From Maribacter aestuarii (GTDB lineage: Bacteria > Bacteroidota > Bacteroidia > Flavobacteriales > Flavobacteriaceae), in assembly GCF_027474845.2 (NCBI RefSeq), contig NZ_CP107031.2:1316501-1380500 (forward strand): 64,000 nucleotides of DNA. The letters are read 5' to 3'. Both the position numbers and the translations under genes were made by a program. Within the stretch, counting starts at the first letter, position 1; each line of letters starts with the position of its first letter. The notes under the pieces were generated by a model that did not search any database, was not told the origin of the DNA, and saw only the letters and a list, made by a program, of their open reading frames with translations. This document shows, in pieces, positions 4,041 to 22,664 of this stretch.

Positions 4041-4049
4041 ATTTTACTT

Positions 4050-6434: not shown

Positions 6435-6467
6435 AGTGTTCCTTTTTATATTCAATTAGAATTATGC

Positions 6468-6483
6468 TTCGACTTTCGTGCCA
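6468..6483 (-). promoter_or_regulatory. sigma-54-type (-24/-12) promoter A
   Basis: On the minus strand TGGCACGAAAGTCGAA gives a perfect -24 block (TGGCACG) and, at correct spacing, TCGA in the -12 position (consensus TTGC; only the T and the G fit). The predicted start is near 6457, leaving a leader of about 23 nt to the ATG at 6434. The enhancer dyads begin 53 bp upstream of the first T. Confidence 0.7.
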
Positions 6484-6535
6484 AAACATAAACAAATGAA
6501 TATCAGTGTATTAAATCAGTTGATTTCTTTAATAC

Positions 6536-6574
6536 TGTAAAATATTTTGACAAAACCTGTATAAAACATTTACA
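6536..6574. promoter_or_regulatory. tandem-dyad enhancer A (candidate activator site)
   Basis: Two 17-bp dyads, TGTAAAATATTTTGACA (6536-6552) and TGTATAAAACATTTACA (6558-6574), are separated by 5 bp, so their centres are 22 bp apart, two helical turns. The same architecture recurs at 11592-11630 and 22626-22664. All six dyads fit TGTnnAAwwnwTnnACA. The placement, about 100 bp upstream of the predicted start, is typical of NtrC-family enhancer sites. The neighbouring activator (22783-24150) is the obvious candidate to bind it. Confidence 0.75.
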
Positions 6575-6593
6575 TTACGCTGGTAGTAAACTT

Positions 6594-8993
6594 CTACTCG
6601 GTGCGTAAACTTTTAACCGGATTCTGCTTTGCAGCACGAATAGCCTGGAAACTTACCGTAAGTACCGTTACGCCCATAGCTCCAATGACCGCCAAGGCAA
6701 AGATCCACCACTCCAGAATTACGCGATAAGGATAGTCTTGAAGCCAGCCGTTCATCACATAGTAAGCAATGGGTATGGCGATAAAGCATGAGATGGTAAC
6801 CAATTTTAAAAAGTCTTTGGAAAGCATATTCCACACGTTGAAGACCGATGCGCCCAGCACCTTTCGCACTCCAATTTCCTTGGTACGCTGTTCGGCGACG
6901 AAGGAAGTAAGCCCAAAGAGTCCTAAACAACTGATTAGAATGGCTAAGGCCGTAAATATTCCGGATAAGGTTCCAATTCTTTGTTCCGCCGCAAACTTCC
7001 GGGCATATTGATCATCTACAAAGTCATACTGAAAGGGAATTGCCGGAAAGTTTTCTTTGAACACCCTTTCTATTATCGCAATACTCTGGTTTGCACTCTG
7101 TTTCGGGTTCAACCTTAAATTATAATAACTAAAATTATTATGGCGATCATAAACGTACCAAGCCTGTTTAACGGGCTCATAAGGCGATTGTGCAATCATG
7201 TCCTCCACAACCCCGATAATCTTCATGGGAGGCCCTGGATCTTCTTCATCCGAATCACGGATTATTGTACCGACAGGATTTTCGAGACCCATATACGCCA
7301 CAGCTGTTTTATTGATTAATATGCCCAAGGAGTCAGAGGCCATTTCTCTTGAAAAATCCCTACCCTGAACAACTTTTAGGTCTAATGTGCTGGCATATTC
7401 CGGGGACACTTCGGTCCAGGCAAAGTCTTCTTGGAAACCTTCTGGTTTTCCTTCCCAAGTATAACCGCTCCGATTGGACCATATCTGTGTTGTTGGACTA
7501 CTAGAGGTGGCCATAGCAATTGCTGCCCCAGAACTTATAAACTGCTCTCGCATTACATCTGTCTTTCCTTCAAAATCGGCGGACCATGTCGGTATTTGAA
7601 TCAAACCCTCCCTATCATAGCCAATGGGACGATTTTTTGCATGGTTGATTTGCTGCATAACGATTACCGTACCTATAATGAAAGCTACGGAAACCGTAAA
7701 TTGTAGGACGACCAATACCTTTCTAGGCAGACCAGCGTATTTGCCAGATTTGAACGTACCCTTGAGCACATCTACAGGTTTAAAGGAGGAAAGATAGAGC
7801 GCTGGATAACTACCGGCCAATAACGCTGTAAAAAGTATAAATACCACCGAGAGGATCCAAAAACTTGTATTGCTCCAAGGGAAAGCAATTTCTTTCAGCG
7901 CCAATTCGTTAAAGCCTTTTAAACTGAGTAATACAATTCCTATGGCCACCACATAGGCAAACAGTACTACCAAAAAAGATTCGCTTAAAAATTGATAGAT
8001 TAATTGCCCCTTTTGTGATCCTATGGATTTTCGAATACCTACCTCTTTAGCCCTTTTCTCCGACCGTGCCGTACTTAGGTTCATGAAATTGATACAGGCC
8101 AAAAGCAGCACAAAGGCACCGATGATACCAAAAAGCCAGACGTATTTTATTCGCCCACCAACTTGTTTGCCATCCACAAAATTATTGCGCAAATACCAAT
8201 CTTCCATGGGCAATAGAAATATTTGCGGATTAAACTCGGCCGTATCTTCGTTAAGGTCTTTCTTAACGTTTCTAATGGTTTCAGAAACATCGGCCACATC
8301 TACATTTTCCTTAAGCTGGACAAACATTTGAAACGAATTGTTGCCCCAGTTGTCCAACGAATTTTTTATCCATTCGCGGTTAGCTACATAGTTGTCCCAC
8401 GGAATAATGTAATCGGTGTCATTGAAGGTATTATTGAAGGGGATGTCTTGATAAACAGCGGAAACGTTTAAATCATATTGGTTACTAATTTTTACTACTT
8501 TACCTATTGGGTCTTCATCTCCAAAAAGTGCTTCGGCCGTGGATGCGGAAAGCATTATGGAATTAATTTCCCGTAAACCGTCTTTTTCTCCTTTAACGAT
8601 TTCTAAATTCAGCAGTTCCGGAGCCATGGGCTGCATATAATTGCCAGGCCGTGATATGCTGTTTTCTTTGTATTTTATATAGCTGTCCTGAGTCCAAGAG
8701 GCCATCATAAGGTACTTAAAATTATCCCTATATCCATTGCGCAGCGCTGGCTCCAAGGGCAGCGGAATTGCGGGACCGGTCCCTGTACGACCATTGAACG
8801 TCTGTGATTGGAAGACCTGTGCAATTTTATCTTTGTTGTGGAAGTAACTATTATGGGAAAGCTCATCGTGCATCCAAAGCCCGATAATTAGCGTGACGGC
8901 CATTCCAAGGGCTAATCCGCCAATATTTATCAAGGAATATCCCTTATTTTTTAAAAGGTTCCTCCAGGCGATTTTCAAATAGTTTCTAAACAT
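6594..8993 (-). CDS. FtsX/MacB-type ABC permease
   Basis: A 799-aa permease. TM1 is about residues 20-42, the first periplasmic domain about 45-285, and the second TM begins near 285. The motif INFMNLSTARSEKRAKEVG (about 301-319) leads into the first coupling helix. The second coupling motif TKEIGVRKVLGAS is near residue 704 and the tail is NPVKSLRTE. The DWYLRNNFVDGKQVGG segment closely matches DWHLRSHFEGGKKVGG in the 16653-19004 permease, so these two are probably closest paralogues. It sits 48 bp downstream of the frameshifted permease and seems to share its promoter (11524-11539). The gap upstream carries a dispersed repeat at 9011-9033. Confidence 0.9.
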   Translation of the reverse strand: MFRNYLKIAWRNLLKNKGYSLINIGGLALGMAVTLIIGLWMHDELSHNSYFHNKDKIAQVFQSQTFNGRTGTGPAIPLPLEPALRNGYRDNFKYLMMASWTQDSYIKYKENSISRPGNYMQPMAPELLNLEIVKGEKDGLREINSIMLSASTAEALFGDEDPIGKVVKISNQYDLNVSAVYQDIPFNNTFNDTDYIIPWDNYVANREWIKNSLDNWGNNSFQMFVQLKENVDVADVSETIRNVKKDLNEDTAEFNPQIFLLPMEDWYLRNNFVDGKQVGGRIKYVWLFGIIGAFVLLLACINFMNLSTARSEKRAKEVGIRKSIGSQKGQLIYQFLSESFLVVLFAYVVAIGIVLLSLKGFNELALKEIAFPWSNTSFWILSVVFILFTALLAGSYPALYLSSFKPVDVLKGTFKSGKYAGLPRKVLVVLQFTVSVAFIIGTVIVMQQINHAKNRPIGYDREGLIQIPTWSADFEGKTDVMREQFISSGAAIAMATSSSPTTQIWSNRSGYTWEGKPEGFQEDFAWTEVSPEYASTLDLKVVQGRDFSREMASDSLGILINKTAVAYMGLENPVGTIIRDSDEEDPGPPMKIIGVVEDMIAQSPYEPVKQAWYVYDRHNNFSYYNLRLNPKQSANQSIAIIERVFKENFPAIPFQYDFVDDQYARKFAAEQRIGTLSGIFTALAILISCLGLFGLTSFVAEQRTKEIGVRKVLGASVFNVWNMLSKDFLKLVTISCFIAIPIAYYVMNGWLQDYPYRVILEWWIFALAVIGAMGVTVLTVSFQAIRAAKQNPVKSLRTE

Positions 8994-9010
8994 GGGTTAA
9001 AATTTTTGAT

Positions 9011-9033
9011 GCTTCGACTTCGCTCAGCACAGG
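9011..9033. repeat. dispersed intergenic repeat (GACTTCGCTCAGC type)
   Basis: GCTTCGACTTCGCTCAGCACAGG lies in the 48-bp gap between two permease genes. Read on the minus strand in one frame it encodes PVLSEVEA, a recognisable by-product of this repeat, which explains a spurious open frame there. Degenerate relatives lie at 894-916 and 14159-14178. Confidence 0.6.
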
Positions 9034-9041
9034 TTGATGAT

Positions 9042-11475
9042 TTATTCCGTTCTTAAGCTCTTTACAGGGTTTACTATAGCGGCTTTTATACTCTGATAAC
9101 TTACGGTGATTACGGCAACGGCAATCCCTAAAGAAGCCGCAAGCACAAATACCCACCAACCTATTTCTATCCGATATGAAAAATCCTCCAGCCATTTGTT
9201 CATGGCATACCAGCCAATGGGGAGCGAGATGACTATCGAGACAACGACCAACTTGAGAAAATCTACCGTAAGCCTGTACGAAATCTGACTTACGGTAGCC
9301 CCCAATACCTTTCTTACCCCGATTTCTTTTGTGCGTTTTTGAGCATTAAAGGCAGCTAATCCAAATAATCCCAAACAAGCAATAAAAATGGAAAGAACGG
9401 TAAATATGACAAATATCATGCTCAGCCGCTGTTCGGCTTCATACGTAGTATTGAAGGAGTCGTCCATGAACCGATAATTAAACGGTTGCCCTGGGGCAAA
9501 AACATCCCAAACATTCTCGATATCGGCAAGGGTCCTTGTATAATCACCTGTGTTTATTTTTGCCGCCAAAATCCCAGGGGTTTCTCTCCAAAAAAGACCC
9601 AAGGCACTTATGTTTTCCCTTAGGGATTCATAGTGGAAATCTTTTATAACCCCGATAACTTTATGGAACTGTGGTCTTTCTAAATCTATATCTTGAGAGA
9701 TTTGGGTTCCTATAGCCTCTTCGGCGTTCATTCCCAAAACTTTTAAAGTTGCCTCATTAATGATTACCGCCATGGAATCTGTGGCAAATTGTTTATTGAA
9801 ATTACGGCCAGCGATCAGTTCCATATCCAATGTGGTAATATAATCCGGGTCCACGCTCCAAGCCTGCATCTGAATAGCATTTTCTTGGGTCATAGCCCCT
9901 TCCCTAAAATAGGAACTGTTAGACCTTGAGGATGGTGTGGGCAGATAAAAGCTTATCGTAGCGTTTTTAACATCCGCTATCTTTAACACCTCTTCTTTGA
10001 ACGACGATAAATTATCCCCTACCGCAAAAACATCATCTACCAGTACGATTTGACTTTTTGAAAAACCCAAGTCCTTACTCTGTATAAAGTTTAATTGCTG
10101 GAAAACGACCATGGTACTTACGATTAAAAAAATAGATATGGTAAATTGAAAAACAACTAAGGCGTTCCTTATTTTTCCACCTCCTACATTACTTTGCGCC
10201 CCACCTTTAAGAGTTTTTACGGGCCTGAATCTTGACATAAAAAATGCAGGATAACTACCAGAAAATAATGCCAATAAAACAGTGGCTACCATCAATAGAC
10301 CCCAAAATAGCGGATTGAAAAAAGGAATGGACACTGATTTTGCCGATAGCTCATTAAAAAATGGCAGTACCAGAATGGTTATAATAAGTGCAACGGCCAA
10401 AGAAATGAACGAGATCAGACCCGACTCCGTTAAGAACTGCCTGATTAATTCCCTTGTATTAGAACCCAAAGTCTTACGTACGCCAACTTCTTTAGCGCGC
10501 TTTAATGAATAGGCCGTAGAAAGATTCATGAAATTAACACATGCCAGCACTATGAGAAAAAGGCCTATAAAGGAAAGTATGTAAATATTTTGAATACTGC
10601 TGTTCGCACTCATTTCAGCATCCCTATCTGAATACAGATGGATGTCCGTCAATGGCATTGTATGGTATCTTAAATAATTACCGGCTTCTATAAAGGACTT
10701 TTTGGTAATTCCCGGAAAGTGTTGTTGAGCCCATGGTAACATATAGGTATCCAACATTCCGGTCAACGGTTCTTGAAAATCCGCAACATCGGCAGATGGG
10801 ATGAGTTTAACAAATGTGAAATAATTATTGCTTCCCCAATTGACCAATTGGGCATCTGCATAACCAGACATGGCCATAAAGACGGTATGATCCCTCAGAA
10901 AAGAGTTTTTTGGTAAATCATCAATTACTCCTGTAACCGTATAAGTGTCACTATTATTTAACAACATGATCTGCCCAAGAGCGTTTTCAACCCCAAAATG
11001 CTTTTCTGCCGCAGTTTTGGTCAACACCATCGTATTTGGTTGCACCAACGCTTTATTTGCATCGCCTACCAATAAATCGATTCCGAAGAAATCAAACAAC
11101 GTAGAATCCGCAAACGCAACCCTTAGTTCTTTTGTATTGGTTTCTGTTCCCGTTTTTCTGAGCAGTAAACTCCCTCTATCCCGAAACCGCACAGTGGATT
11201 CTACTTGTGAAAAGTCCTGTTGCATGGTGGCCGCCATAGGAGCGGAAGCCTCCGCAGAATCTCATTTCGGCTCCACCAAATTTAATGTCCGTATCTATCC
11301 GATAAATACGCTCGGCATCGGCGAACATTTTATCATAATTCAGCTCATCGTGAATATAAAGTGAAATCAATATTCCCCCGGCCATACCAATGGCCAGTCC
11401 AAAGGTATTTAGGAAAGTAAAAAAGGGTTGCTTTTTGAGACTTCTCCAAGCTATTTTAAGGTGATTTTTAAACAT
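9042..11475 (-). pseudogene. FtsX/MacB-type ABC permease, split by a one-base frameshift
   Basis: The N-terminal part (MFKNHLKIAWRSLKK..., from 11475) reads well to RIDTDIKFGGAEMRF and then runs out of frame. From about 11255 the shifted frame continues with AEASAPMAATMQQDF and stays open to the stop at 9042. Removing one base in the minus-strand run TTCTGCGG (11252-11259) restores a 810-aa protein, the normal family length. The rest is typical: CVNFMNLSTAYSLKRAKEVG, second coupling motif TKEIGVRKVLGAT and tail NPVKSLRTE. An internal ATG at 11237 could only give a form lacking TM1. It is the first gene behind promoter 11524-11539 and enhancer 11592-11630. The break is either a recent inactivation or a sequence error; no slippery heptamer suggests programmed shifting. 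Confidence 0.88.
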
Positions 11476-11523
11476 GATTATTATGATTTTGATTGATGAT
11501 GGCCCTTAACACCTATTTCTAAG

Positions 11524-11539
11524 GACTAATTTTATGCCA
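11524..11539 (-). promoter_or_regulatory. sigma-54-type promoter B (weaker match)
   Basis: The minus strand reads TGGCATAAAATTAGTC: TGGCA in the -24 block and TAG in the -12 block, with the conserved G at the right spacing. Predicted start near 11513; the ATG is at 11475. The first T is exactly 53 bp from the dyad pair at 11592, the same distance as in copy A, which supports the call despite the imperfect -12 block. Confidence 0.6.
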
Positions 11540-11591
11540 TTTATTTATAATATTGATTTTCAAATAGTTACATAATGTAAAGGTTCTAAGC

Positions 11592-11630
11592 TGTAAAATT
11601 TTTAGACAAACGATGTACAATATATTTACA
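11592..11630. promoter_or_regulatory. tandem-dyad enhancer B
   Basis: TGTAAAATTTTTAGACA (11592-11608) and TGTACAATATATTTACA (11614-11630) with a 5-bp spacer repeat the layout of copies A and C. It lies in the 217-bp gap downstream of the 11693-14122 permease and upstream of the frameshifted permease. Confidence 0.75.
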
Positions 11631-11692
11631 AGGACTATTTTAATTTTCAATTGTTACATAACTGATAGTTCAGCGTTCTAACTTAATAGGAA

Positions 11693-14122
11693 CTACTCTG
11701 TCCGAAGACTTTTTACCGGATTGGCAAGTGCCGATTTTACCGATTGAAAACTCACGGTAAGGACCGTAATCAGTAAAGCAAAACCTCCTGCCAAGGCAAA
11801 AACCCACCATTGAATGTCAATGCGATAGGTATAATCTTCTAACCACCTTTGCATAAAGTAATAAGCGATAGGTGATGCAATGAGAAATGCAACGCCCACC
11901 AGTTTAATAAAATCCTTCGTTAAAAGCTGCACAACGGAATTGATACTGGCTCCCAAAACTTTTCGAATCCCTATTTCCTTTTTCTTCTGTTCCGCTACGT
12001 AGGAGACCAAGCCAAAAAGACCCAAGCAACTTATTAGAATTGCCAGAATGGTGAAAACCACTGAGATTTGACCCAATCGTTTTTCTTCGTCATACAGTTT
12101 TACAACCTCTTTATCCACAAACCGATAATCAAAGGGAACATTATTTACCGTGGCCTTCCATTGTCGTTCCAAACCTGATAATAGCTGTTGGTAGTCTGCT
12201 GTCTGCGTCTTAATGAACAACCAGTTAGGCTCATCCTCTTTATAAAGAAATAAAGGTGCTATCTCATTTTTTAAGGATGCAAAATGATAGTCTTTTGCAA
12301 CACCTATAATACGCATTTCATAAGTCTCATCTCCAAAACTCTGTACAAGTCTTGAACTTAAAGCTTCTTCTTCCTTAATATCGAAAACCCGTAATGTCGC
12401 CTCATTTACAATAATTTGATCTGTGGTATCCGCCGGAGTAAAATCCCTTCCTTTCAGCAACGGAATGTTCATTGTTTCAAAATATCCTTCACTTATTCCC
12501 TGACGTTTCACGATTGTAACATTTTCGCGACTCCCTCCAGGTAAATACAGACCATTGTCATTTAGGATGACCTCTGACGGCGCATAATTACCGCTGGACA
12601 CATTGACAACCCCGGGTACGTTCAAAAAGGATGACTTTAGGGATTCGAACTTATTGGAAGCCTCAGCTGTACCTATTCGAAGTGCCAATAGATTTTCCTT
12701 TTGAAAACCTAAATCCTTGTTTTGAGCAAACCGGAATTGCTGTGTTACAATAATTACCGTAGCTACAAGACTAATGGAGACCACAAATTGAAATACCACC
12801 AAAACCTTTCTAAAAGTACCATTACCCGACTGTAAAATTGTAGAGCTTTTTAAGGCTTTAATCGGTTTAATCGAGGAAAGGATTATGGCTGGGTAAATAC
12901 CCGAAACCAGACCTGTAATGGTACCTAAACCAAATAATATGAAAATGATACGCCAATTAAATAAATCCTGTAGCACTAAACTTGCATTCGTGAGTTCATT
13001 GACTACTGGAAGTAGAAGAATGGTAATGGGAATGCTTATCAGCATCGCAAAAAGTGATAAAAGTAAAGACTCCCCTAGAAATTGCCTTATCAGGATGTTT
13101 TTTCCTGCGCCCACTACCTTACGCACTCCTATTTCCTTGGCCCTTTTACTTGCCCTCGCCGTACTAAGATTAATGAAGTTTATACAAGCGACAAGTTGAA
13201 TAAAAAATGCCAATGTAAGTAAGAAATAAAGATATTTGATATTGGAAACTTCATGAATTTGATTTTCCCGTCCTTCTGAATATAAATGGATATCCGAAAC
13301 TTTCTGCAACACCAGAACCTTATTGTCCATTCCCGCATCCTTGAGATCTTTGGCCCCTCTTTCTTGTATAAAGGTTGGCAACTTACGCTGTAATCCTTGG
13401 GCATTGCTATTGGGTTGCAGCTTTATATAACTATACACAAAATTGTTCGTTGCAAAGCTTGCAAAGTTTTGAACAAAAGTTCCCATACCGGGAGTGCTCA
13501 TGCTTACAATATAATTTGGGTCCAAGTGAGATTTTTCAAAAGACTCATCAAAAACCCCCTTTACCGTTAAGGTTTGTGCGTCCGCCCCGCTTCCCCATGT
13601 TACATTTTTGCCCAAAGCCTTCTGACGGCCAAATAGTTTATTTGCCAAAGATGAAGAAAGTACCAAGGCATTGGGTTCGTTCAATGCAGTCTCCGGTCTA
13701 CCTTCTAAAAATTTATAATTAAATATCTTGAAAAAAGTAGAATCCGCCATATAGACTCGAGGCTCATAGTAAGCATCCTCACTGTTGGCCGCCCCTATTA
13801 AATTGCTAGTAAAAACATCCGTTAAAACTACACGCGTTGCTTCCTGGACTTCCGGAAAATCTTCTTTTAATGCAAAAGCTGTGGGAGGTGATGCAGCGGC
13901 GGTATTCCAACTTGCTTTACCATCTCTTTCTATAATTGTTTCCACTCTATAGATAGTATCTGCATTTTCATGTTGCGTATCATAACCGAATTGAGCAAAG
14001 ACGTACAGGACAATGGCAAGACAACTTACCGTGCCTATAGTAAGACCTAGCAAATTTATAATGGTCTGCTGTTTATTCTTGAGAAGGTTTCTCCAAGCGA
14101 TTTTTATATATTGTTTTATCAT
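11693..14122 (-). CDS. FtsX/MacB-type ABC permease
   Basis: At 809 aa this is the longest intact permease of the array. It starts MIKQYIKIAWRNLLKNK, with TM1 near 22-45, and carries CINFINLSTARASKRAKEIG leading into the coupling helix GVRKVVGAG, then a second module with KKKEIGIRKVLGAS and the tail NPVKSLRTE. The periplasmic segment ending in DIHLYSEGRENQ links it with the 9042-11475 and 14197-16596 permeases. It is the last gene of the transcript that begins with TolC at 22520; a 217-bp regulatory gap follows. Periplasmic domains of this family contact substrate or adaptor; which of these it does is not visible. Confidence 0.9.
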   Translation of the reverse strand: MIKQYIKIAWRNLLKNKQQTIINLLGLTIGTVSCLAIVLYVFAQFGYDTQHENADTIYRVETIIERDGKASWNTAAASPPTAFALKEDFPEVQEATRVVLTDVFTSNLIGAANSEDAYYEPRVYMADSTFFKIFNYKFLEGRPETALNEPNALVLSSSLANKLFGRQKALGKNVTWGSGADAQTLTVKGVFDESFEKSHLDPNYIVSMSTPGMGTFVQNFASFATNNFVYSYIKLQPNSNAQGLQRKLPTFIQERGAKDLKDAGMDNKVLVLQKVSDIHLYSEGRENQIHEVSNIKYLYFLLTLAFFIQLVACINFINLSTARASKRAKEIGVRKVVGAGKNILIRQFLGESLLLSLFAMLISIPITILLLPVVNELTNASLVLQDLFNWRIIFILFGLGTITGLVSGIYPAIILSSIKPIKALKSSTILQSGNGTFRKVLVVFQFVVSISLVATVIIVTQQFRFAQNKDLGFQKENLLALRIGTAEASNKFESLKSSFLNVPGVVNVSSGNYAPSEVILNDNGLYLPGGSRENVTIVKRQGISEGYFETMNIPLLKGRDFTPADTTDQIIVNEATLRVFDIKEEEALSSRLVQSFGDETYEMRIIGVAKDYHFASLKNEIAPLFLYKEDEPNWLFIKTQTADYQQLLSGLERQWKATVNNVPFDYRFVDKEVVKLYDEEKRLGQISVVFTILAILISCLGLFGLVSYVAEQKKKEIGIRKVLGASINSVVQLLTKDFIKLVGVAFLIASPIAYYFMQRWLEDYTYRIDIQWWVFALAGGFALLITVLTVSFQSVKSALANPVKSLRTE

Positions 14123-14158
14123 GATTGATTGTTTTTTGATTGATACTTCAACTGTAAT

Positions 14159-14178
14159 TTCGACTTCGCTGAGTGACT
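14159..14178. repeat. degenerate dispersed repeat between permease genes
   Basis: TTCGACTTCGCTGAGTGACT resembles the 9011-9033 repeat and lies in the 74-bp gap between two permease genes. Confidence 0.4.
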
Positions 14179-14196
14179 ACACTCAATACAAGTTAT

Positions 14197-16596
14197 TTAT
14201 TCTGACCGTAAGCTTTTTACCGGATTTGTTCTTGCCGCCTTTACCGCGTGAAAACTTACAGTAGCTACTGCTATGGCCAAAGCAATACCTCCAGACATTG
14301 CAAAGACCCACCAACTTATATCAATTTGATACGCATAATCACTTAACCACTTGTTCATGGCATACCAAGAAAAGGGGGTGGCAATGAAAATGGCGATTAG
14401 TACAAGTTTCATAAAATCCTTGGATAAAAGCATTACGATGCTCGTAACCTCCGCTCCTAAAACTTTACGTACACCTATCTCCTTGGTCCTTTGTACGGCA
14501 CTATAGGTAGCCAATCCTAGCAACCCTAAACAAGCGATTAAAATGGCAAGGAACGAAAAGATAGTAAAGAGGTTTTTAAACTTGAAATCGGCTTCATACT
14601 GTTCATTGAAAGATTCATCCAGGAAGCTATAAAGGAACGGGCGATGAGGCGCAAGTTCTACCCATTTTTGCTCAACATTGGTAATCGCTTGCTTTAAATC
14701 GGATGATTTGATCTTTAAGGAAAGGTATTTGCCATACTGTGAATAACGTAGCGCTAACGGGGCTACTGTTTGATGCAGGGACAAGTAATTAAAATCTTTT
14801 ACCACTCCCACAATGGTTCCTTCCCGTCCCCATTGTTCAAAGCGTTTTCCTATAATATCCGATGCATTCGCGTATCCAAAACTCCTTGCAGCTGATTCAT
14901 TAACGACCATTGCCTGGGTAGAGTCCGTTGCAAATTCCCTAGAGTAAGGTCTACCCGCAACCACCTCTATTTCGTAATGCGGTATAAAGTCGAAATCAAT
15001 CTCATATAGAAAAGGTTCAAAATTTTCCATTTGACCTTCATTTGTTTCTACGCTGGTTCCCGCGGCGGGAAAATGACTTCCAGGTACCGTTCGTGAACCA
15101 GCAACTGAAACCACCTCTGGCAGCGTCATGAATTCGCTTTTAATGGTCTCCATATTGTCCAGTACCTCGCCGTCCCAGTTAAAATCAATAACCAATTGCT
15201 GCTCCCGGTCAAAGCCCAAATTTTTATCCAACATAAAGCCTAATTGAAAGTATACGATTACCGTGCTTGCAATCAACGCTATGGAAAGACTGAATTGAAA
15301 TATGACCAATCCCTTTCGAAGTCTGTTCCCGTTCTGGGAACTTCTAAAGACACCTTTTAATACGCTTGAAGGCCTGAAACTTGATAGCACAAAGGCAGGG
15401 TAACTCCCTGATAACAAACCTAAAACCAATGCCGTGCCGACATAGGTAAAGACTGTGAAGCTATTGAAAAGTTCCCCTGTCAAAAATGGCTTTCCTGTGA
15501 TTTCGCGCATTGCGGGAAGGCAAAGCATGACAAGTCCTAATCCCAATAGCGATGCCAAAAGAACCATAATCATGGACTCTCCCAGAAATTGATATATCAA
15601 TCCCTTCTTATTGGCTCCTATCACCTTTCGAATACCCACTTCCTTGGCCCTTTCCAAAGATCGGGCTGTAGCCAAGTTCATAAAATTGATACTTGCTATG
15701 ATTAAAATAAACAGGCCAATAATCGAAAAAATATAAATGTTGGAGAGACTTCCAGTTATACCAGGTTGCCTTGCCGCTTTCGATTGTAGATACGCTGAAC
15801 TTAGGGGCTCAAAAGAAAGGTCATAGTAATATTCTGCATCTTCCGCTGGGCGGTTCCTTTTAAGGAATGCTGGCATTTTTGCCTGAAAAGCGGCTTGATC
15901 AAAATTCTCGTCGACCAAAAAGTAGGTATAAAAATCTACGTAGCCCCAAGAGTCAAAAATATTTGGCCTAGTCTGGTAAAACGAACTCATAGACATAAGC
16001 ACATCAAAAGAAAAGTGTGAATTGGAAGGCACATCTTTCATTACCCCGGTAACCGTGTAAATACCATCATTTGCTCTTCCGCCTACACCATCAATAGTTT
16101 TACCCATGGGATCCTCATCTCCGAAATATTTCTTGGCGGTACTTTCTGTCAAAACAATGGAATAAGGAGCTTCCAAGGCAGTTTTAGGGTTGCCGGATAG
16201 CAGAGGCCATGTGAATACATCAAACGCACTGGGGTCCATATAAAAGCAATTGCTTTCCTGGAAAGAACGATTATTGTATTCCAACAAAATATCAGACCGA
16301 CCAGAGAATTGTACTTTCTCTAATACTTCTGGAAAATCCGCTTTTAAGGCTGGCCCGACCGGTGCATTACCCCATATCCATCTATCTTCCAAATTATCGG
16401 GACTACCATGGTGCACCACCCTATAAATTCGATTTCCTTTTTCATGATAGCTATCATAGGAAAGTTCATTCTTAATGAACATTGCAATCAATAAAAAGCA
16501 GGTCATGCCTATGGCCAGACCACCAATATTAATTGCGGAATACCCTTTGTTTTTAAGAAGGTTTCGCCACGCGATCTTGATATAGTTTTTTAACAT
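14197..16596 (-). CDS. FtsX/MacB-type ABC permease
   Basis: A 799-aa permease with the double FtsX module. It begins MLKNYIKIAWRNLLKNKGYS. TM1 is about 21-43, and the second membrane block begins at SNIYIFSIIGLFILIIA (about 286-302), leading into INFMNLATARSLERAKEVG and the coupling helix IRKVIGANKKG. The C-terminal coupling motif is TKEIGVRKVLGAE and the tail NPVKSLRSE, the only one of the seven with Ser-Glu in place of Thr-Glu. It is preceded and followed by permeases with gaps of 56 and 74 bp, both holding short dispersed repeats. It should form a homo- or heterodimer with neighbouring permeases and use the 19120-19815 ATPase (inference). Confidence 0.9.
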   Translation of the reverse strand: MLKNYIKIAWRNLLKNKGYSAINIGGLAIGMTCFLLIAMFIKNELSYDSYHEKGNRIYRVVHHGSPDNLEDRWIWGNAPVGPALKADFPEVLEKVQFSGRSDILLEYNNRSFQESNCFYMDPSAFDVFTWPLLSGNPKTALEAPYSIVLTESTAKKYFGDEDPMGKTIDGVGGRANDGIYTVTGVMKDVPSNSHFSFDVLMSMSSFYQTRPNIFDSWGYVDFYTYFLVDENFDQAAFQAKMPAFLKRNRPAEDAEYYYDLSFEPLSSAYLQSKAARQPGITGSLSNIYIFSIIGLFILIIASINFMNLATARSLERAKEVGIRKVIGANKKGLIYQFLGESMIMVLLASLLGLGLVMLCLPAMREITGKPFLTGELFNSFTVFTYVGTALVLGLLSGSYPAFVLSSFRPSSVLKGVFRSSQNGNRLRKGLVIFQFSLSIALIASTVIVYFQLGFMLDKNLGFDREQQLVIDFNWDGEVLDNMETIKSEFMTLPEVVSVAGSRTVPGSHFPAAGTSVETNEGQMENFEPFLYEIDFDFIPHYEIEVVAGRPYSREFATDSTQAMVVNESAARSFGYANASDIIGKRFEQWGREGTIVGVVKDFNYLSLHQTVAPLALRYSQYGKYLSLKIKSSDLKQAITNVEQKWVELAPHRPFLYSFLDESFNEQYEADFKFKNLFTIFSFLAILIACLGLLGLATYSAVQRTKEIGVRKVLGAEVTSIVMLLSKDFMKLVLIAIFIATPFSWYAMNKWLSDYAYQIDISWWVFAMSGGIALAIAVATVSFHAVKAARTNPVKSLRSE

Positions 16597-16615
16597 GATT
16601 CTCGTTTTTCTTGTA

Positions 16616-16630
16616 CTGAAATTGATTCAG
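16616..16630. repeat. short inverted repeat CTGAA-N5-TTCAG
   Basis: CTGAAATTGATTCAG lies in the gap between two permease genes. The same 5-5-5 inverted repeat occurs at 19049-19067 and 26642-26656, so it is a dispersed element rather than a local operator. Confidence 0.5.
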
Positions 16631-16652
16631 CGTCCTAGTTGTATTTCCTAAT

Positions 16653-19004
16653 TCATTCCGTTCGTAAGCTTTTTACGGGGTTGGCATTGGCCGCTTTGAT
16701 AGCTTGAAAACTAACCGTTAATAGTGCTATAGTAATAGCAACAGCTCCGGCAATAACAAATACCAACCAATTAATTTCAATACGATAAGCAAAACTTTCC
16801 AACCAATTTTGCATGGCATACCATGCCAATGGAATAGCAATTAAAATGGAAATAAATACTAATTTCATGAAATCTTTTGAAAGTAGGTTCACAATGCCAG
16901 AAACGCTGGCTCCCAATACCTTTCTTACGCCAATTTCCTTTCTACGTTGCTCTGCTGTAAATATTGAGAGGCCAAATAGCCCTAGACATGAAATAATTAC
17001 GGCCAGCACGGCAAATATTTTTGAAAGGTTGCCCATAAGTTTTTCACTTCTGAACATGGCGTTAAAAGCGTCATCAACAAATTCGTATTCAAAAGGAAAT
17101 GCAGGGTTATATTTTTTCATCACTACCTCCATCGTAGCCAATATTTCGGTCATTGGTATGCCGGATTTACCTTTAACGTACATGTAATTTGCATAATCGG
17201 GATTATTAAAAAACAATACCGGTTCGGCACTACCGTACAGATTACCGAATAAGTAATTTTTAACCACACCGATAATGTTGTAGGTTTCGCCCCTAATAAT
17301 CGTCTTGTCAACCGCAGTTCCTTCACCCATCATTTTAGCTAGTGACTCAGAAACCAGAACATTTGTGCTATCGGCGGCAACATTATCACCAAAATTTCTG
17401 CCTTCAACTAATGTCATTCCGGCGGTTTCCAAAAAAGACGGAGTTATGTGTCTAAAGGAAATAAGTACATCTTCCGTGTCGGTGCCGCCCTTCCATTGAA
17501 AACCTGAACCATTATTACCACCGTAAAGGACTTGGGAATTGTTTAGGCCCACATTCTCAACCATTCCCGATGCAATCATATCTTGCCTGATGGGATTGAA
17601 ATTTTTGACCATATCCCCGTTAACATTCATCTTAATGAGGTTCTCTTTCTGGTATCCCAAATCACGCCCCTTAACATGTTGTACCTGTTGGTAAACAATA
17701 ATTGTACTGATAATAAAGATTATAGAAACTGCAAATTGCGTAACTACGAGTACTTTTCGTATTAGGCTTGCACTTCCTTCTTTAGCCTTTATACCTTTGA
17801 TAACTTCCACAGGTTTGAAGGAGGATAGATAGAAAGCAGGATACCAACCTGCTAAAAGTCCACAAATGATGGTAATACCCAAAAGGGAAAGTAGATGCAA
17901 AGGCGAGAAAAGCCCAAGCTCTATCTGCTTTTCTACAAGTAGGTTGAACTCTGGTAACAATAGCAATAATAATAAAACACTAACGATGGAAGCGAGAGTT
18001 GCCGTAATAAGGGCTTCAGCCATAAACAGTGAAACCAATCTTCTTTTACCCGAACCTAGCACTTTGCGTACTCCAACTTCTTTGGCTCGTTTTTCGCTTC
18101 TTGCCGTGGAAAGGTTCATGAAATTAATACAGGCAATAAATAAGATTATAAATGCGATAAGCGCAAATAACCTCACATAAACGATTTGACCGCCCACCTT
18201 TTTCCCACCTTCAAAATGGGATCTCAGGTGCCAGTCTTTCATTGGGTGCAGAAAAGCGTAAGTCTCTGGGTTTCCAGTTATAGAGGGAAGTATTTTTTGA
18301 ACTTTAGCATCAACTATCTTAAAATCAGCTCTTGGAGCCAGTTCTACAAAAGTGTCCGTAAACTTACTACCGTAATCTTGCATCCATTCTACACCGGCCG
18401 AGTAGCGTTCGAACGGAGCCAACCATTCAAATCCAAAACTTACGTTTGCGGGTAGGTCTTGAACAACTCCGGTAATAACATAATTATCGACATTATTTAC
18501 TCTCAGAACCTTATTCAAAACAGGAGTATTCTCGCCGAATAAATCCGATACAGTTTTTTGGGTCAGTACTATGGCATCAGGTCTTTCAAAAGCGGTTTTA
18601 GAACTTCCTTCTATGAATTGTAGACTAAAAATCTCAAAAAAATCAGCATCGGCAAATCTTCCCTGTCTGTTAATTCCATTATCGCCTTCCGTAAAGAGTA
18701 AGTTTTCCGAGGATGTTGCCACTGCCCTGACAATTTCAGGTATTTCCTCTTTTAGGTCTCGGGCCAATAGCATTGGTGTTGAATAAAAAGTACTCCATTC
18801 CCCTTCATATTTTTGATTTGTAGGCACGTAGTATATCAAATCTTGTTTTGGAAAAGTACTGTCAAAGTTCACTTCATCTTCAACCCAAAGAAATATCAAA
18901 CTAGCACAGGTAATTCCAATGGCCAGTCCAAAAATATTAAGAGCACTATAACCTTTGTTCTTCCAGAGACTTCTCCACGCTATTTTGATATAGTTGTTAA
19001 ACAT
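16653..19004 (-). CDS. FtsX/MacB-type ABC permease
   Basis: At 783 aa this is the shortest of the array's permeases. It starts MFNNYIKIAWRSLWKNKGYS with TM1 near 21-42. The motif INFMNLSTARSEKRAKEVG precedes the coupling helix VRKVLGSGKRR, and the second module has RRKEIGVRKVLGAS and the tail NPVKSLRTE. The segment DWHLRSHFEGGKKVGG makes it the nearest relative of the 6594-8993 permease. It is the first permease after the canonical ATPase (19120-19815), 115 bp downstream of it, so it is the best candidate for that ATPase's primary partner. The gap holds a dispersed inverted repeat. Confidence 0.9.
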   Translation of the reverse strand: MFNNYIKIAWRSLWKNKGYSALNIFGLAIGITCASLIFLWVEDEVNFDSTFPKQDLIYYVPTNQKYEGEWSTFYSTPMLLARDLKEEIPEIVRAVATSSENLLFTEGDNGINRQGRFADADFFEIFSLQFIEGSSKTAFERPDAIVLTQKTVSDLFGENTPVLNKVLRVNNVDNYVITGVVQDLPANVSFGFEWLAPFERYSAGVEWMQDYGSKFTDTFVELAPRADFKIVDAKVQKILPSITGNPETYAFLHPMKDWHLRSHFEGGKKVGGQIVYVRLFALIAFIILFIACINFMNLSTARSEKRAKEVGVRKVLGSGKRRLVSLFMAEALITATLASIVSVLLLLLLLPEFNLLVEKQIELGLFSPLHLLSLLGITIICGLLAGWYPAFYLSSFKPVEVIKGIKAKEGSASLIRKVLVVTQFAVSIIFIISTIIVYQQVQHVKGRDLGYQKENLIKMNVNGDMVKNFNPIRQDMIASGMVENVGLNNSQVLYGGNNGSGFQWKGGTDTEDVLISFRHITPSFLETAGMTLVEGRNFGDNVAADSTNVLVSESLAKMMGEGTAVDKTIIRGETYNIIGVVKNYLFGNLYGSAEPVLFFNNPDYANYMYVKGKSGIPMTEILATMEVVMKKYNPAFPFEYEFVDDAFNAMFRSEKLMGNLSKIFAVLAVIISCLGLFGLSIFTAEQRRKEIGVRKVLGASVSGIVNLLSKDFMKLVFISILIAIPLAWYAMQNWLESFAYRIEINWLVFVIAGAVAITIALLTVSFQAIKAANANPVKSLRTE

Positions 19005-19048
19005 GACTGTTCTAATTTTTTGGTCGATTAATTTGGTTGGCTATTTAA

Positions 19049-19067
19049 TGCTGAAACCAGTTCAGCA
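19049..19067. repeat. short inverted repeat TGCTGAA-N5-TTCAGCA
   Basis: A perfect 7-bp arm inverted repeat between the ATPase gene and the first permease, of the same family as 16616-16630 and 26642-26656. In RNA it can form a small hairpin within the transcript. Confidence 0.55.
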
Positions 19068-19119
19068 TCAATTGATGAATAAACTCCTACTGAGCAATTT
19101 GGCAACATGAATTGGCTGA

Positions 19120-19815
19120 TTAGACCATTGCCCCAATAGCCCTATTTTGGCTTTCCGTAACTACTTGACCGTCGAATAGGTTTACGACCCTATGTGCATA
19201 ATGTGAATCCCTGTCCGAGTGTGTTACCATTACTATAGTTGTTCCTTCCTGGTTCAATTCCGTCAACAGGTTCATTACTTCAATACCATTTTTGGAATCC
19301 AAATTTCCTGTAGGCTCATCCGCAAGAATCAATTTTGGATTGGTAACTACTGCCCTGGAAATAGCCACACGCTGTTGTTGCCCTCCGGATAGTTGCTGTG
19401 GAAAATGTTTTTCCCTATGGGCTATCTTCATGCGCTCCAATACCTTCATCACCTTTTCTTTTCGCTCGCTCTTACCCATTTTTAAATAGATAAGCGGAAG
19501 CTCAACATTCTCATAAACCGTAAGTTCATCTATAAGATTGAAGCTTTGGAATACAAATCCCAAGTTGCCCTTTCGTAATTGAGTACGCTGACTTTCCTTG
19601 AGTCCGCCCACTTCATTGCCCGCGAAGTTGTAGCTCCCCTCCGTTGGGTTGTCCAACATTCCAATGATGTTCAGCAGCGTAGATTTTCCACACCCAGAAG
19701 GACCCATGATAGCGACAAATTCACCATCTTCTACTTTTAGGTTTACATTGTTCAAGGCCAAGGTTTCTACCTCCTCTGTCTTGAAGCTCTTTTTTAAATT
19801 TTTAATCGTTATCAT
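19120..19815 (-). CDS. ABC transporter ATP-binding protein, LolD/MacB type
   Basis: Start placed at the ATG at 19815 (MITIKNLKKSF), giving 231 aa; an upstream TTG at 19839 would add eight residues across a repeat remnant. Motifs are canonical: Walker A GPSGCGKST, signature LSGGQQQRVAISRAV, Walker [14 protein letters not shown] and H-loop VTHSDRD. The family powers MacB, LolCDE and BceAB-like extruders without transporting through the membrane. It lies between the adaptor gene and the first permease of the TolC transcript and is the only canonical ATPase for at least five permeases, so it may be shared. The C-terminal end (TESQNRAIGAMV) extends slightly past the usual fold. Confidence 0.92.
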   Translation of the reverse strand: MITIKNLKKSFKTEEVETLALNNVNLKVEDGEFVAIMGPSGCGKSTLLNIIGMLDNPTEGSYNFAGNEVGGLKESQRTQLRKGNLGFVFQSFNLIDELTVYENVELPLIYLKMGKSERKEKVMKVLERMKIAHREKHFPQQLSGGQQQRVAISRAVVTNPKLILADEPTGNLDSKNGIEVMNLLTELNQEGTTIVMVTHSDRDSHYAHRVVNLFDGQVVTESQNRAIGAMV

Positions 19816-19830
19816 TTGTTCACTTATTAG

Positions 19831-19852
19831 ACCTACCAACCGGCAGGCGGGT
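19831..19852. repeat. GC-rich dispersed repeat remnant
   Basis: CTACCAACCGGCAGGCGGGT resembles a degenerate palindrome centred on CCGG and stands out from its AT-rich surroundings. It lies between adaptor and ATPase genes and overlaps the rejected upstream TTG of the ATPase. Confidence 0.4.
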
Positions 19853-19905
19853 TATAGTTGCTTTATTAAAGACCTTTTGGACTTGTTGTCCGTTGCATTT
19901 ATAAT

Positions 19906-21156
19906 TTATTTTAATACTATTCTTTCTGCTTCTCCGAAGCTGTCATAGTTACTTGTGATCACTTCCTCTCCCGCTTCCAGACCTTCCAGTACTTCATAAT
20001 ACCTAGAATTCTGTTTGCCTACACGGATATTACGCTTTAAAGCCTCATCCGATCCGGGTGCTACCACAAATATCCATTGACCCCCGGTACTCTGGAAAAA
20101 GCTTCCTTTAGGTAAAAGCAATGCATTACTGGATTCACCTAATTGCAACTTAATGTTATAGCTCTGCCCTGCTCGTATGGTTTCCGGTTTACTGTCGGTA
20201 AATACCAAATCAACACGAAACCTACCATTACGCACTTCAGGATATACCTTTCGCACCCTTAAAGGGAAATCATTCCCATTTCTTTCAAAGCTCGCCGTCA
20301 AATCCCGTTTAACGCGATCTATGTAGTGCTCGTCTATCTCTGCCTCAATTTTATAATCCGTAAGCACATTTAATTGGCCAATACGCTGTCCTTGTGAAAT
20401 ATTCTGTCCGATTTCAGCATCCAGAAACCCTAATTGACCATCCGCAGGAGCACGCACGTTCAGGTGGTCCAAACGTTGATATACCATTCCCAGGGTTTTT
20501 TGCATCCGATTTAAATCGGCCTCCAAAACTGGCAAAGATGTTTTTCTTAATTCATCATCGTTCTCTGTCTGTACCTTTACAATTTCATATTGTTTTTTTG
20601 AAAGCTCATAGTTTTCCTTTGACAACTGATATTCTTCTTTCGATATCAACTCCTCCTCATAAAGCGCCTTATTCTGCTCATAATTTCTTTTTAACCGTTG
20701 CAAATCCGTACTGGCCGTCGCTAATGACCTCCTACCTTCCACCTGTCTGGAGTCAAAAGTTAGTTTGGTGGAACGTAAGTCATTCTGCTTTAAGGCCAGA
20801 TTACTCTCGCTAGCTAGAATTTGCTCGTACAGGTTCATATTTTCCAATTTTAGGATAATGTCCCCTTCCTTTACCATGGCACCTTCCTCTATTAATTTTT
20901 CGGTGACACGTCCGCCCTCGTAGGCATCCATATAGATAGTAGTTATCGGGGCTACTGTACCATTTATAGTGATGTAATCATCAAATTTGCCTTGGGTTAC
21001 GGTCGCAATAGAAAGTTTATCCTTCTCGGTCCTATACGTGGAGACCGAACTTGCAAAAAGAAGCTGATAGCCAACGAACAAGACCAACAGGCCTAAAGCT
21101 ATATACCCATAATGTTTGGGGCGTAATCCTTTTTTCTTTTCTAATTTTATATCCAT
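19906..21156 (-). CDS. periplasmic adaptor (membrane fusion protein), MacA/HlyD type
   Basis: A 416-aa adaptor linking an inner-membrane ABC extruder to a TolC-like channel. It has an N-terminal membrane anchor (GYIALGLLVLFVGYQLLFA, about 17-35), a lipoyl half (VTEKLIEEGAMVKEGDIIL), a long alpha-helical hairpin rich in Gln, Lys and Glu (about 105-215), and a second lipoyl half (LNVRAPADGQLGFL). A beta-barrel and membrane-proximal domain follow, ending in EGLEAGEEVITSNYDSFGEA. It starts 8 bp after the TolC stop and precedes the ATPase by 90 bp, so it is within one operon. It is the only adaptor for the seven permeases here. Confidence 0.93.
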   Translation of the reverse strand: MDIKLEKKKGLRPKHYGYIALGLLVLFVGYQLLFASSVSTYRTEKDKLSIATVTQGKFDDYITINGTVAPITTIYMDAYEGGRVTEKLIEEGAMVKEGDIILKLENMNLYEQILASESNLALKQNDLRSTKLTFDSRQVEGRRSLATASTDLQRLKRNYEQNKALYEEELISKEEYQLSKENYELSKKQYEIVKVQTENDDELRKTSLPVLEADLNRMQKTLGMVYQRLDHLNVRAPADGQLGFLDAEIGQNISQGQRIGQLNVLTDYKIEAEIDEHYIDRVKRDLTASFERNGNDFPLRVRKVYPEVRNGRFRVDLVFTDSKPETIRAGQSYNIKLQLGESSNALLLPKGSFFQSTGGQWIFVVAPGSDEALKRNIRVGKQNSRYYEVLEGLEAGEEVITSNYDSFGEAERIVLK

Positions 21157-21164
21157 CTTTCTAG

Positions 21165-22520
21165 TTAATCGTTTTTGTTAATATTAAATACCGGAAGCCC
21201 TCTGTAAAAGTCCAAAGTACTTTTATTTATTTCCGACCTCAACCTCACTTGTAAATTTTCATTCTGGGCGCTGGCGAACAGATTTTTTGCAGTAAACAAT
21301 TCAATGCCGTTAATCAATCCTTTTTCATAGCGCCTCTGCGCAATAGTAAAAGCCATTCTTTGCGCTTCCATATTCTGAACACTTTGCTCCGACTGCACCA
21401 ACAATGAGTTGTGCTCCTGTACTAATTGTTGAATCGTTTGAAATAGCACCTGTTCTTGTACCTCTAGATTATTCTGTTGTCTAAGCTTTTCTATTTTAGC
21501 CTGTTTCACCCTTGAGCGCGCCGACCACCCATTACTAATAGGGACATTTAAACTCAAACCATAAAATCTGGAGGTATTGTCCCTAAATTGTTCGCGAAAG
21601 GGCAAAGTATTTCCTAGAGAATCCCGAAAAGTTTCAAAATAGCCCGTACCGATACCTGCAAATAGGGATAGTGAAGGATAAAGATCTCCCCTTGCCACGC
21701 CCACTTGCTTTTTTGCCGCTTGGGCCCTTAGTTCTTGTGCCTTTATTAAAGGCAAGAATTCTCGTGCTTTTGAATAGACAGTGTCCGAACGCATCTTTGA
21801 TGCTGTTTCTGTTTGTGCTACTTGCCCAATGTCAGGTACAATTTCTATCTCGGAAGTATCTTCCAGGTTCATTTCTTGAATCAAGGTTAACTTCGCCGCC
21901 GCCAACTGATTCTCACTTTGGGTGAGGTTTAATTCATCGGCCAATAATGCGGATTTTGCCTCGTATAGGTCAGCACCGGCCATTAAACCTAATTCTATCT
22001 GTTTCTCGACCAACTTCAAATTAGTTTCGGAGACCGTTAATTGCTCACTCGCAATGGCCACTAAACCTTCAAAGAACCGGATGTTGTTAAACGCTTGCAT
22101 AACGCGAAACGCCAAAAGGTATTTTTGCTGTAGCAACTCTTCCTTCGCCGCCTTATATAGAAATTTAGATGCCTTTATAGAATTGATTTTTTGAAAACCT
22201 TGAAATAAATCAATATTAGACTGCAATGAATAATTATTTGAGAAAAAGTCTTGAACCACGAACGTTCCCGTATTAGGATCTTCAGCTCTACCGGAATTTA
22301 CATTGTAATTCGAATTGGCATTGAGTACTGGTAACAAGTTACGCACAGATTGTCTATAGGTTTCCCGGCCCGACTGCTCCGTAAAGTTAAAATCGTTTAG
22401 CTGAAGGTTGTGTTCCAAAGCATAGGCCACACATTCGTCTAAAGTCCATTTATCTTGAGCGGTCAACGTTAAGCCGAACACAACTGTAAATAGTAGGGAT
22501 ATTTTGAATTTAGTAATCAT
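21165..22520 (-). CDS. TolC-family outer-membrane efflux protein
   Basis: Start placed at the ATG at 22520, which gives a proper signal peptide (MITKFKISLLFTVVFGLTLTAQ) and a 451-aa product; the longer frame to 22601 would begin upstream of the predicted transcription start. Two OEP repeats are visible, each with long amphipathic helices: about residues 30-215 starting WTLDECVAYALEHN, and about 230-440. Family members form trimeric beta-barrel/alpha-tunnel ducts. It is the first gene of the array's longest transcript, 16 nt behind the predicted start of promoter C, and is followed after 8 bp by the adaptor. Confidence 0.93.
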   Translation of the reverse strand: MITKFKISLLFTVVFGLTLTAQDKWTLDECVAYALEHNLQLNDFNFTEQSGRETYRQSVRNLLPVLNANSNYNVNSGRAEDPNTGTFVVQDFFSNNYSLQSNIDLFQGFQKINSIKASKFLYKAAKEELLQQKYLLAFRVMQAFNNIRFFEGLVAIASEQLTVSETNLKLVEKQIELGLMAGADLYEAKSALLADELNLTQSENQLAAAKLTLIQEMNLEDTSEIEIVPDIGQVAQTETASKMRSDTVYSKAREFLPLIKAQELRAQAAKKQVGVARGDLYPSLSLFAGIGTGYFETFRDSLGNTLPFREQFRDNTSRFYGLSLNVPISNGWSARSRVKQAKIEKLRQQNNLEVQEQVLFQTIQQLVQEHNSLLVQSEQSVQNMEAQRMAFTIAQRRYEKGLINGIELFTAKNLFASAQNENLQVRLRSEINKSTLDFYRGLPVFNINKND

Positions 22521-22546
22521 ATTCTTTATTGGTGTGCCAAACAAAT

Positions 22547-22562
22547 AACTATATGTATGCCA
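22547..22562 (-). promoter_or_regulatory. sigma-54-type promoter C (weaker match)
   Basis: The minus strand reads TGGCATACATATAGTT: TGGCA in the -24 block and TAG in the -12 block, almost the same form as promoter B (TGGCAT-N5-TAGT). Predicted start near 22536; ATG at 22520. The dyads begin 64 bp upstream of the first T, 11 bp (one helical turn) more than in copies A and B, so they stay on the same helix face. Confidence 0.6.
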
Positions 22563-22625
22563 AGAATCTATTTTATTGGTTATCAGAATATTAAATAACA
22601 ATATTTTACGTCATTCATAAATTAC

Positions 22626-22664
22626 TGTAAAATAGTTGTACAGAGATTGTCAAAATATTTGACA
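22626..22664. promoter_or_regulatory. tandem-dyad enhancer C in the divergent control region
   Basis: TGTAAAATAGTTGTACA (22626-22642) and TGTCAAAATATTTGACA (22648-22664), 5 bp apart. The second is embedded in a perfect 8-3-8 inverted repeat, TTGTCAAA-ATA-TTTGACAA. It sits between the TolC operon (minus) and the activator gene (plus) and could serve the first as an enhancer and the second as an autoregulatory site. Confidence 0.75.

Follow-up and report, generated by a model that had tools for sequence, protein, structure and literature searches.

Paired dyads and putative sigma-54 promoters of an FtsX-type permease array in Maribacter aestuarii, with related promoters before scattered permease genes in Flavobacteriaceae

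RESULTS AND DISCUSSION

Three paired-dyad elements in a permease array

Three elements in a permease array of Maribacter aestuarii are very likely sigma-54 promoters with a shared enhancer read by the adjacent response regulator (22783-24150), through which the array would be switched on together. They lie in a stretch of 64,000 nucleotides (contig NZ_CP107031.2, positions 1,316,501 to 1,380,500; hereafter the window, whose numbering is used throughout), and the array holds seven double-length MacB_PCD-FtsX permeases, two ABC ATPases, an HlyD-type adaptor and a TolC-family protein. The sequence elements, their geometry and conservation, their co-occurrence with the regulator and the genes that they precede were all read directly from the genomes. 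The elements and the two putative signalling genes are as follows.

6536 to 6552, no strand: dyad 1 of pair 1 (the dyad closer to the promoter of the 4050/1629/937 block)
6558 to 6574, no strand: dyad 2 of pair 1
6501 to 6513, plus strand: IHF-like consensus WATCARN4TTR (TATCAGTGTATTA), between pair 1 and its core
6468 to 6483, minus strand: -24/-12-like core TGGCACG-AAAG-TCG, block 937-6455
11592 to 11608, no strand: dyad 1 of pair 2
11614 to 11630, no strand: dyad 2 of pair 2
11524 to 11539, minus strand: -24/-12-like core TGGCATA-AAAT-TAG, block 6594 to about 11475
22626 to 22642, no strand: dyad 1 of pair 3
22648 to 22664, no strand: dyad 2 of pair 3
22581 to 22593, plus strand: IHF-like consensus (TATCAGAATATTA), between pair 3 and its core
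22547 to 22562, minus strand: -24/-12-like core TGGCATA-CATA-TAG, block 11693 to about 22521 (tolC, hlyD, ATPase, three permeases)
22535 to 22539, minus strand: second TGGCA box, 23 bp downstream of the tolC core, at the predicted start point
22783 to 24150, plus strand: NtrC-type response regulator (receiver, AAA+, Fis-type helix-turn-helix), proposed reader of the dyads
24233 to 25579, plus strand: histidine kinase with PAS and HATPase domains, proposed partner of the regulator

All six TGT-N11-ACA dyads of the window fit TGTnnAAwwnwTnnACA, with a 5-bp gap between the two of each pair; they and the three minus-strand cores (TGGCACGAAAGTCG, TGGCATAAAATTAG and TGGCATACATATAG) lie exactly where the original prediction had placed them. 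Its distances of 53, 53 and 64 bp, and their 11-bp difference, are real as well when counted first base to first base, with 52, 52 and 63 bases lying between core and pair. The single-dyad pattern gave 9 matches in the window (six places, three of them fitting both strands) against 0.36 expected, and the pair pattern occurred 3 times in the 3,864,851-base genome, always within the array, with none in the reversed control. When up to three mismatches were allowed, a scan of the whole window returned only the same three places (0.40 expected), in agreement with the earlier claim that no other gap of the array has such an element. The earlier description did not include the IHF-like consensus (matched in two of the three promoters) or the second TGGCA at 22535-22539.

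Chance origin of the pairs was rejected, as the reversed pair controls were all zero in this genome and in the family genomes described below. It was also ruled out that the dyads belong to MacB-type permeases in general: no pair lies outside the array in this genome, where further MacB_PCD permeases are encoded at about 983, 2332, 2476-2482 and 2675 kb (all shorter) and at 3004 kb (876 residues).

Spacing and sequence of the core

Promoter geometry was compared over 110 distinct pairs (from the window and loci L044-L123 and L159-L191), which were found as TGT-N11-ACA twice and de-duplicated by context. A TGGCW-N6-TnG core stood in register with 100 of them, at 51-53 bp in 12 and at 62-65 bp in 88, with none at 54-61 bp; only 4 matches of this pattern occurred elsewhere within 0-139 bp of either flank. 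Twelve loci added last are kept apart from the 110, among which some of them had already been counted; the core lay at 52-54 bp in seven of the twelve and at 62-63 bp in four, and L263 had only TGGTT at 64 bp. Taken over all loci together, the two spacing classes are best stated as 51-54 and 62-65 bp. All 73 regulator-adjacent promoters belong to the long class (72 precede tolC, and one has no called open frame), and the permease promoters divide into 13 long and 12 short. The -24-like core thus holds its helical phase relative to the pair, as had been proposed, the two classes being one turn apart. Paired dyads 22 bp centre to centre, about 100 bp upstream of the predicted start, and spacing classes separated by one helical turn are the arrangement of a candidate upstream enhancer.

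The in-register promoters share the core consensus TGGCAYR-N4-TVG, with TGGCAY at -24 in 100 of the 110 pairs; positions 6 and 7 were Y and R in 100 of 100 aligned promoters, though the search pattern had left them free.

Such conservation might be mere inheritance of one duplicated promoter together with its permease, without present function. The permeases are paralogous and many loci come from close, congeneric relatives, so that raw counts overstate independence. However, 56 promoters at most 70% alike hold the same two spacing classes, the spacing differences are about whole helical turns, and the interval sequence has, by eye, diverged except at the boxes; we therefore consider this explanation extremely improbable.

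A second TGGC at the downstream place seen in the window occurred in 62 of the 73 regulator-adjacent (tolC) promoters and in 0 of the 27 others; it usually reads TTTGGCAYACCAATA, about 23 bp 3' of the core. A TAGTTTTA/TAGCTTTA-like box was also seen by eye to be repeated between the pair and the regulator gene (window about 22685-22700, L112 and L082), and this is possibly the sigma-A -7 box of the regulator gene itself.

Co-occurrence of the pair with the regulator

The regulator carries receiver, AAA+ and Fis-type helix-turn-helix domains in one chain (Pfam PF00072, PF00158 at 226 bits, and PF02954, all above cut-offs), which is the domain set of NtrC-family response regulators, and its closest named relatives are from Maribacter species. 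To establish the distribution of the pair, 299 Flavobacteriaceae genomes were surveyed, and a protein of at least 62% identity to the regulator was classed as an ortholog. The strict pair was present in 35 genomes and the relaxed pair in 38, with a reversed control of 0 in all. Orthologs were found in 44 genomes; the relaxed pair occurred in 36 of these 44 versus 2 of the 255 without an ortholog (Fisher P about 3 × 10−36, uncorrected for phylogeny). Of 80 named regulator loci, three (L053, L071 and L086) stop short of the site; the pair stood beside the regulator in 72 of the remaining 77, and the other 5 carry one base changed. In a set of 296 genomes of the order (some shared with the family set), 6 had the strict pair, and all 6 are Flavobacteriaceae. 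The proposed check, whether pairs are conserved upstream of orthologous arrays in related Flavobacteriaceae, thus came out in the affirmative, and conservation extends to the site beside the regulator.

The sigma-54 activator domain gave four strong matches in the M. aestuarii genome, the regulator at 22783-24150 included, and six weak ones. The three other sigma-54-type activators (L179, L180 and L181) were considered as readers of the dyads and set aside, the roughly 20 kb fetched around each holding no pair.

Paralogous regulators with a different operator

A further 51 of the 299 genomes have only a regulator of 43-49% identity (95 genomes with a match minus the 44 above), here called type B as opposed to type A. 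The recognition helix reads TR(A/T/G)ALYRR in the 24 type B loci that were read, as against (S/T)RQTLYNK in 16 type A regulators. Beside type B regulators the operator takes two forms, the first a TGTTCR-N4-YGAACA pair with 6 bp in between and again 22 bp centre to centre, the second asymmetric with CGAACA or CGGACA on one side; an exact-format pair was looked for at the 24 loci and was absent in several. The TGTTCR-N4-YGAACA pair was present in 19 of the 299 genomes (control 0), each time at most 100 bp from a type B regulator. A core was found at 20 of the 24 loci (none in L183, L230 and L234; the match in L220 lies elsewhere and was set aside), and in the 14 loci having both exact-format pair and core the core lay 61-64 bp from pairs of the first form (8 loci) and 53 bp from those of the second (6 loci). 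Type B -12 boxes include TTG, and one promoter (L222, TGGCACATGCATTGCT) has a canonical -24/-12 core with TTGCT. Two genomes (G077 and G135) have both regulator types, each beside its own operator.

A changed recognition helix together with a changed operator in the same geometry is what would be expected if the regulator at 22783-24150 reads the dyads. Another DNA-binding protein might read them in its place, TGT-N11-ACA being a generic dyad and one genome (G226), in which no regulator match exceeds 42% identity, having a pair with a degenerate core. Given the association across 299 genomes, the pairs beside the regulator at 72 of 77 loci and the fact that paralogs differing in recognition helix also differ in the operator next to them, this is very unlikely. 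The claim that the activator controls the array is therefore supported by co-occurrence, adjacency, helical phase and the operators of the paralogs; its further statement that control covers all eleven genes, with the three blocks as operons, takes the putative extents from gene order alone.

Target genes elsewhere in the genomes

The 36 ortholog-bearing genomes with relaxed pairs contained 68 of them, 36 beside the regulator (one each) and 32 others (2 in the window, before permeases 4050 and 9042; 18 at further loci; and the 12 loci added last). Directly downstream of these 32 lay a double permease in 30 cases, the array ATPase in 1 and another gene in 1. Ten of the 18 loci are far from the regulator or on other contigs, nine of them before a lone permease and one (L169) before a second array. 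Around the nine lone permeases, no other permease was found within the approximately 20 kb fetched, and the same sequence gave no ATPase match in 8 of the 9 (L168 has a 32% match about 4.6 kb away). Judged by these promoters, the predicted regulon acts in trans, because the same promoter module precedes permease genes, mostly lone ones, elsewhere in the genomes of relatives. Probably one TolC-HlyD-ATPase machine is supplied with a set of alternative permeases.

An IHF-like box between enhancer and core

Of 100 intervals separating pair and core, 72 contained a match to the IHF consensus WATCARNNNNTTR; shuffled intervals gave 2.2 on average and 7 at most. In the window two of the three promoters have an exact match; one was looked for in the interval between pair 2 and its core, and none was found. 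Aligned on the core, the box is a palindrome, TAA-N5-TGA-N3-TCA-N5-TTA, whose centre is 19 bp upstream of TGGCA. Short promoters (8 matches) and long ones have this box at the same distance from the core, give or take one base, which places the extra turn between the enhancer and the bend. Among type B promoters, 10 of 20 have an IHF match, which lies about one turn further upstream in one subtype. The genome encodes two proteins of the HU/IHF family (L246 and L247), both below the IHF cut-offs; a homodimeric protein of this family would favour a symmetric site.

The palindrome could instead bind another specific regulator, such as a repressor, which would otherwise be compatible with the sigma-54 reading. 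Its symmetry, which the IHF sites of Escherichia coli are not known to have, and the sub-threshold scores of both HU/IHF-family proteins favour this possibility. Yet each half of the palindrome equals the IHF consensus WATCARxxxxTTR (PMC3897727; this and the other papers cited by PMC number were available in part, and statements about them refer to those parts), and its centre, near -45, lies not far from -42 and -43, where sigma-54 promoters in the same paper have their IHF sites. The box also recurs in type B promoters with a different enhancer, in one subtype about a turn further upstream. A second regulator is thus somewhat unlikely.

Departures from the sigma-54 consensus and other exceptions

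Besides the relatedness of the loci, several observations weigh against sigma-54 promoters read by this regulator, and the first concern the core. At -14 the 100 aligned promoters have A in 70, C in 15 and G in 15 but never T, and only 16 have C at -12, so that the -12 box is T-V-G and not TTGC. The strict pattern TGGCAYRN4TTGCW matches the genome once, within an open coding frame, as often as its reversed control does (1). A core is missing in register at 10 of the 110 pairs: L072 and L090 have CGGCA in place of TGGCA; at L160, L162 (9760), L166, L169 and L172 the core lies at about 62-63 bp and carries one to three changes; L165 has a TGGCA with no in-register T-n-G; L171 has no core; and L162 (18262) is a second, looser pair, outside the 32 target pairs, with TGGCATG but no T-n-G. 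Among the loci added last, L256 has its core at 54 bp, and L258 (without T-n-G) and L263 lack a full core. The regulator itself has GSFTDA in its L1 loop, not GAFTGA, and GSFTDA or GAFTDA was found in 16 of 16 type A regulators read; a GAFTDA protein failed to pull down RpoN (PMC10714721), while GAFTDA and GSFTGA are among the L1 variants said to retain activity (PMC4641369).

The association with the regulator has exceptions too. Eight of the 44 ortholog genomes are without a relaxed pair; six of these were fetched at length, and five (L184-L188) retain one dyad near the regulator and a TGGCAYR core, while L189 has only the TGGCAYR core and no dyad. Conversely, two genomes (G142 and G226) have a pair without a close regulator, that in G142 looking like a chance match. 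In one genome a pair (L162:9760) precedes a DUF2268/GldB-like gene, with a degenerate core at the right distance.

In G226 (L172, G226:C25:62178-62216) a clear pair is followed by AGGCACA-N4-TGG at 63 bp and then by an MG2-domain protein; the best regulator match there is only 42% identical. The canonical -12 sites of the M. aestuarii genome were considered as a yardstick and dropped, as the sole site lies in an open coding frame. The genome has rpoN and four sigma-54-type activators, and its sigma-54 promoters may generally depart from the -12 consensus.

On these grounds the regulator might use the dyads without sigma-54, activating or repressing sigma-A promoters (consensus TAnnTTTG, from PMC9723704), with TGGCA part of another element. 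The loop and the T-V-G box, both off consensus, fit such a reading, and the TTTGGCA found 23 bp downstream in tolC promoters overlaps a possible sigma-A-like TTTG box. The invariant Y and R of TGGCAYR, unasked by the search, argue against it, however, as do the two core-pair spacing classes one turn apart and the TTG, once TTGCT, at the homologous place in type B promoters. The genome also has a single, uninterrupted copy of rpoN (sole PF04552 match, 176 bits), with ARRTVAKYR, which we take to be the RpoN box, near the C-terminus. Regulation without sigma-54 is accordingly very improbable.

Genes of the array and a proposed mechanism

The array genes, all on the minus strand, are listed from the regulator outwards.

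21165 to 22601, minus strand: TolC-family outer-membrane factor (open frame; ATG at about 22521)
19906 to 21156, minus strand: HlyD/RND-type periplasmic adaptor
19120 to 19839, minus strand: MacB/LolD-type ABC ATPase
16653 to 19004, minus strand: double MacB_PCD-FtsX permease
14197 to 16596, minus strand: double MacB_PCD-FtsX permease
11693 to 14122, minus strand: double MacB_PCD-FtsX permease
9042 to 11237, minus strand: double permease, N-terminal part interrupted (in-frame stops upstream of 11237)
6594 to 8993, minus strand: double MacB_PCD-FtsX permease
4050 to 6455, minus strand: double MacB_PCD-FtsX permease (open frame; ATG at about 6434)
1629 to 4040, minus strand: double-length MacB_PCD-FtsX permease (two FtsX stretches and one MacB_PCD stretch matched)
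937 to 1602, minus strand: second ABC ATPase of the array

The interruption of permease 9042-11237 lies at about 11237-11475 on the minus strand, and a TGA falls within the MacB_PCD match. Two of the seven permeases were tested against the ADOP family (TIGR03434) and scored 164.8 and 301.8 bits, below the curated cut-off of 622. The profiles of the darobactin exporter DarBCD also gave scores below their curated cut-offs, with 301 and 239 for the ATPases (of 375), 208 for the adaptor (of 450) and 80 and 108 bits for two array permeases (cut-off 700).

Binding by the regulator, dependence on sigma-54, a bending protein and a single shared ATPase are what we infer from the promoters and genes described above. 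Domains and adjacency suggest that the kinase (24233-25579) would phosphorylate the response regulator (22783-24150), which would then bind both dyads, two helical turns apart. The palindromic box, centred some 19 bp before the -24 element, would be bent by an IHF-like protein, and open complexes would form at TGGCAYR-N4-TVG under the action of the looped activator. All three blocks, with TolC, the HlyD adaptor, two ATPases and seven double FtsX-type permeases, would then be induced together.

We would give about an even chance to the fuller proposal of a plug-in exporter, in which one TolC-HlyD-ATPase core is served by many ATPase-less double FtsX-type permeases, arrayed or scattered, in one sigma-54 two-component regulon. 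At its promoters a homodimeric HU/IHF-family protein would bend a symmetric double-IHF box, and whole-turn changes between enhancer and bend would be tolerated.

Relation to known systems and significance

Paired-dyad enhancers, an IHF bend and a -24/-12 promoter are combined in the NtrC and NifA systems, and double-length ADOP permeases typically have no neighbouring ATPase. NtrC-family systems, including DVU2106 of the Desulfovibrio orp operons (PMC3897727), resemble the array system in having an AAA+ activator, a palindromic site about 100 bp from the start with an IHF-like site between, TGGCA at -24 and an rpoN in the genome. Here, in contrast, the loop is GSFTDA, the -12 box T-V-G and the IHF-like box palindromic, and the half-sites and targets are without counterpart in the parts of the literature consulted. 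In Flavobacterium psychrophilum, of the same family, mapped sigma-54 promoters serve envelope stress, chaperones and gliding (PMC9723704). That regulon (motif SM4) is alike in its -24/-12 promoters and envelope-related targets, and the three PF00158 proteins of the species are a further likeness; its selected targets are chaperones, gliding and exported proteins, with no permease array and no enhancer sites in the available part of the paper. A matrix-based survey of 2025, which presents its result as the first such evidence, predicts that FtsX-like permeases (COG0577) are under sigma-54 control in three classes, Bacteroidia among them (PMC12316311). It shares with our results the tie, drawn through promoter matrices, between sigma-54 promoters and FtsX-like permeases in the phylum; it differs in reporting class-level enrichment, and its available part has no activator, enhancer pair, IHF box or regulon of orphan permeases. 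The link between sigma-54 and FtsX-like permeases is thus already in print at class level.

ADOP permeases are like those of the array in their about 800 residues and two MacB_PCD-FtsX units; the array permeases differ in being tied to a TolC-HlyD-ATPase operon by one promoter type and in scoring under the family cut-off. MacAB-TolC and DarBCD likewise have an adaptor, an ATPase and a permease of related families, whereas the proteins here fall below the equivalog cut-offs and many permeases go with one adaptor. Neither the regulon of scattered permeases nor its activator, enhancer pair or palindromic box was described in anything that a literature search returned. The regulatory logic is of a known kind; what is new is the variant -12 box, the symmetric IHF-like box, the whole-turn spacing classes and, above all, the scattered double permeases.

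Double-length FtsX-type permeases without a neighbouring ATPase are widespread, and their function is not known. A shared regulon would point to likely partners for them, namely the ATPase, the adaptor and the TolC protein that lie behind a promoter of this type, and the promoter signature lets scattered members of the regulon be found in Flavobacteriaceae genomes. These promoters, with two paralogous activator types that have different half-sites, two positions of the IHF-like box and spacings about whole turns apart, also form a natural series for studies of looping at sigma-54 promoters.

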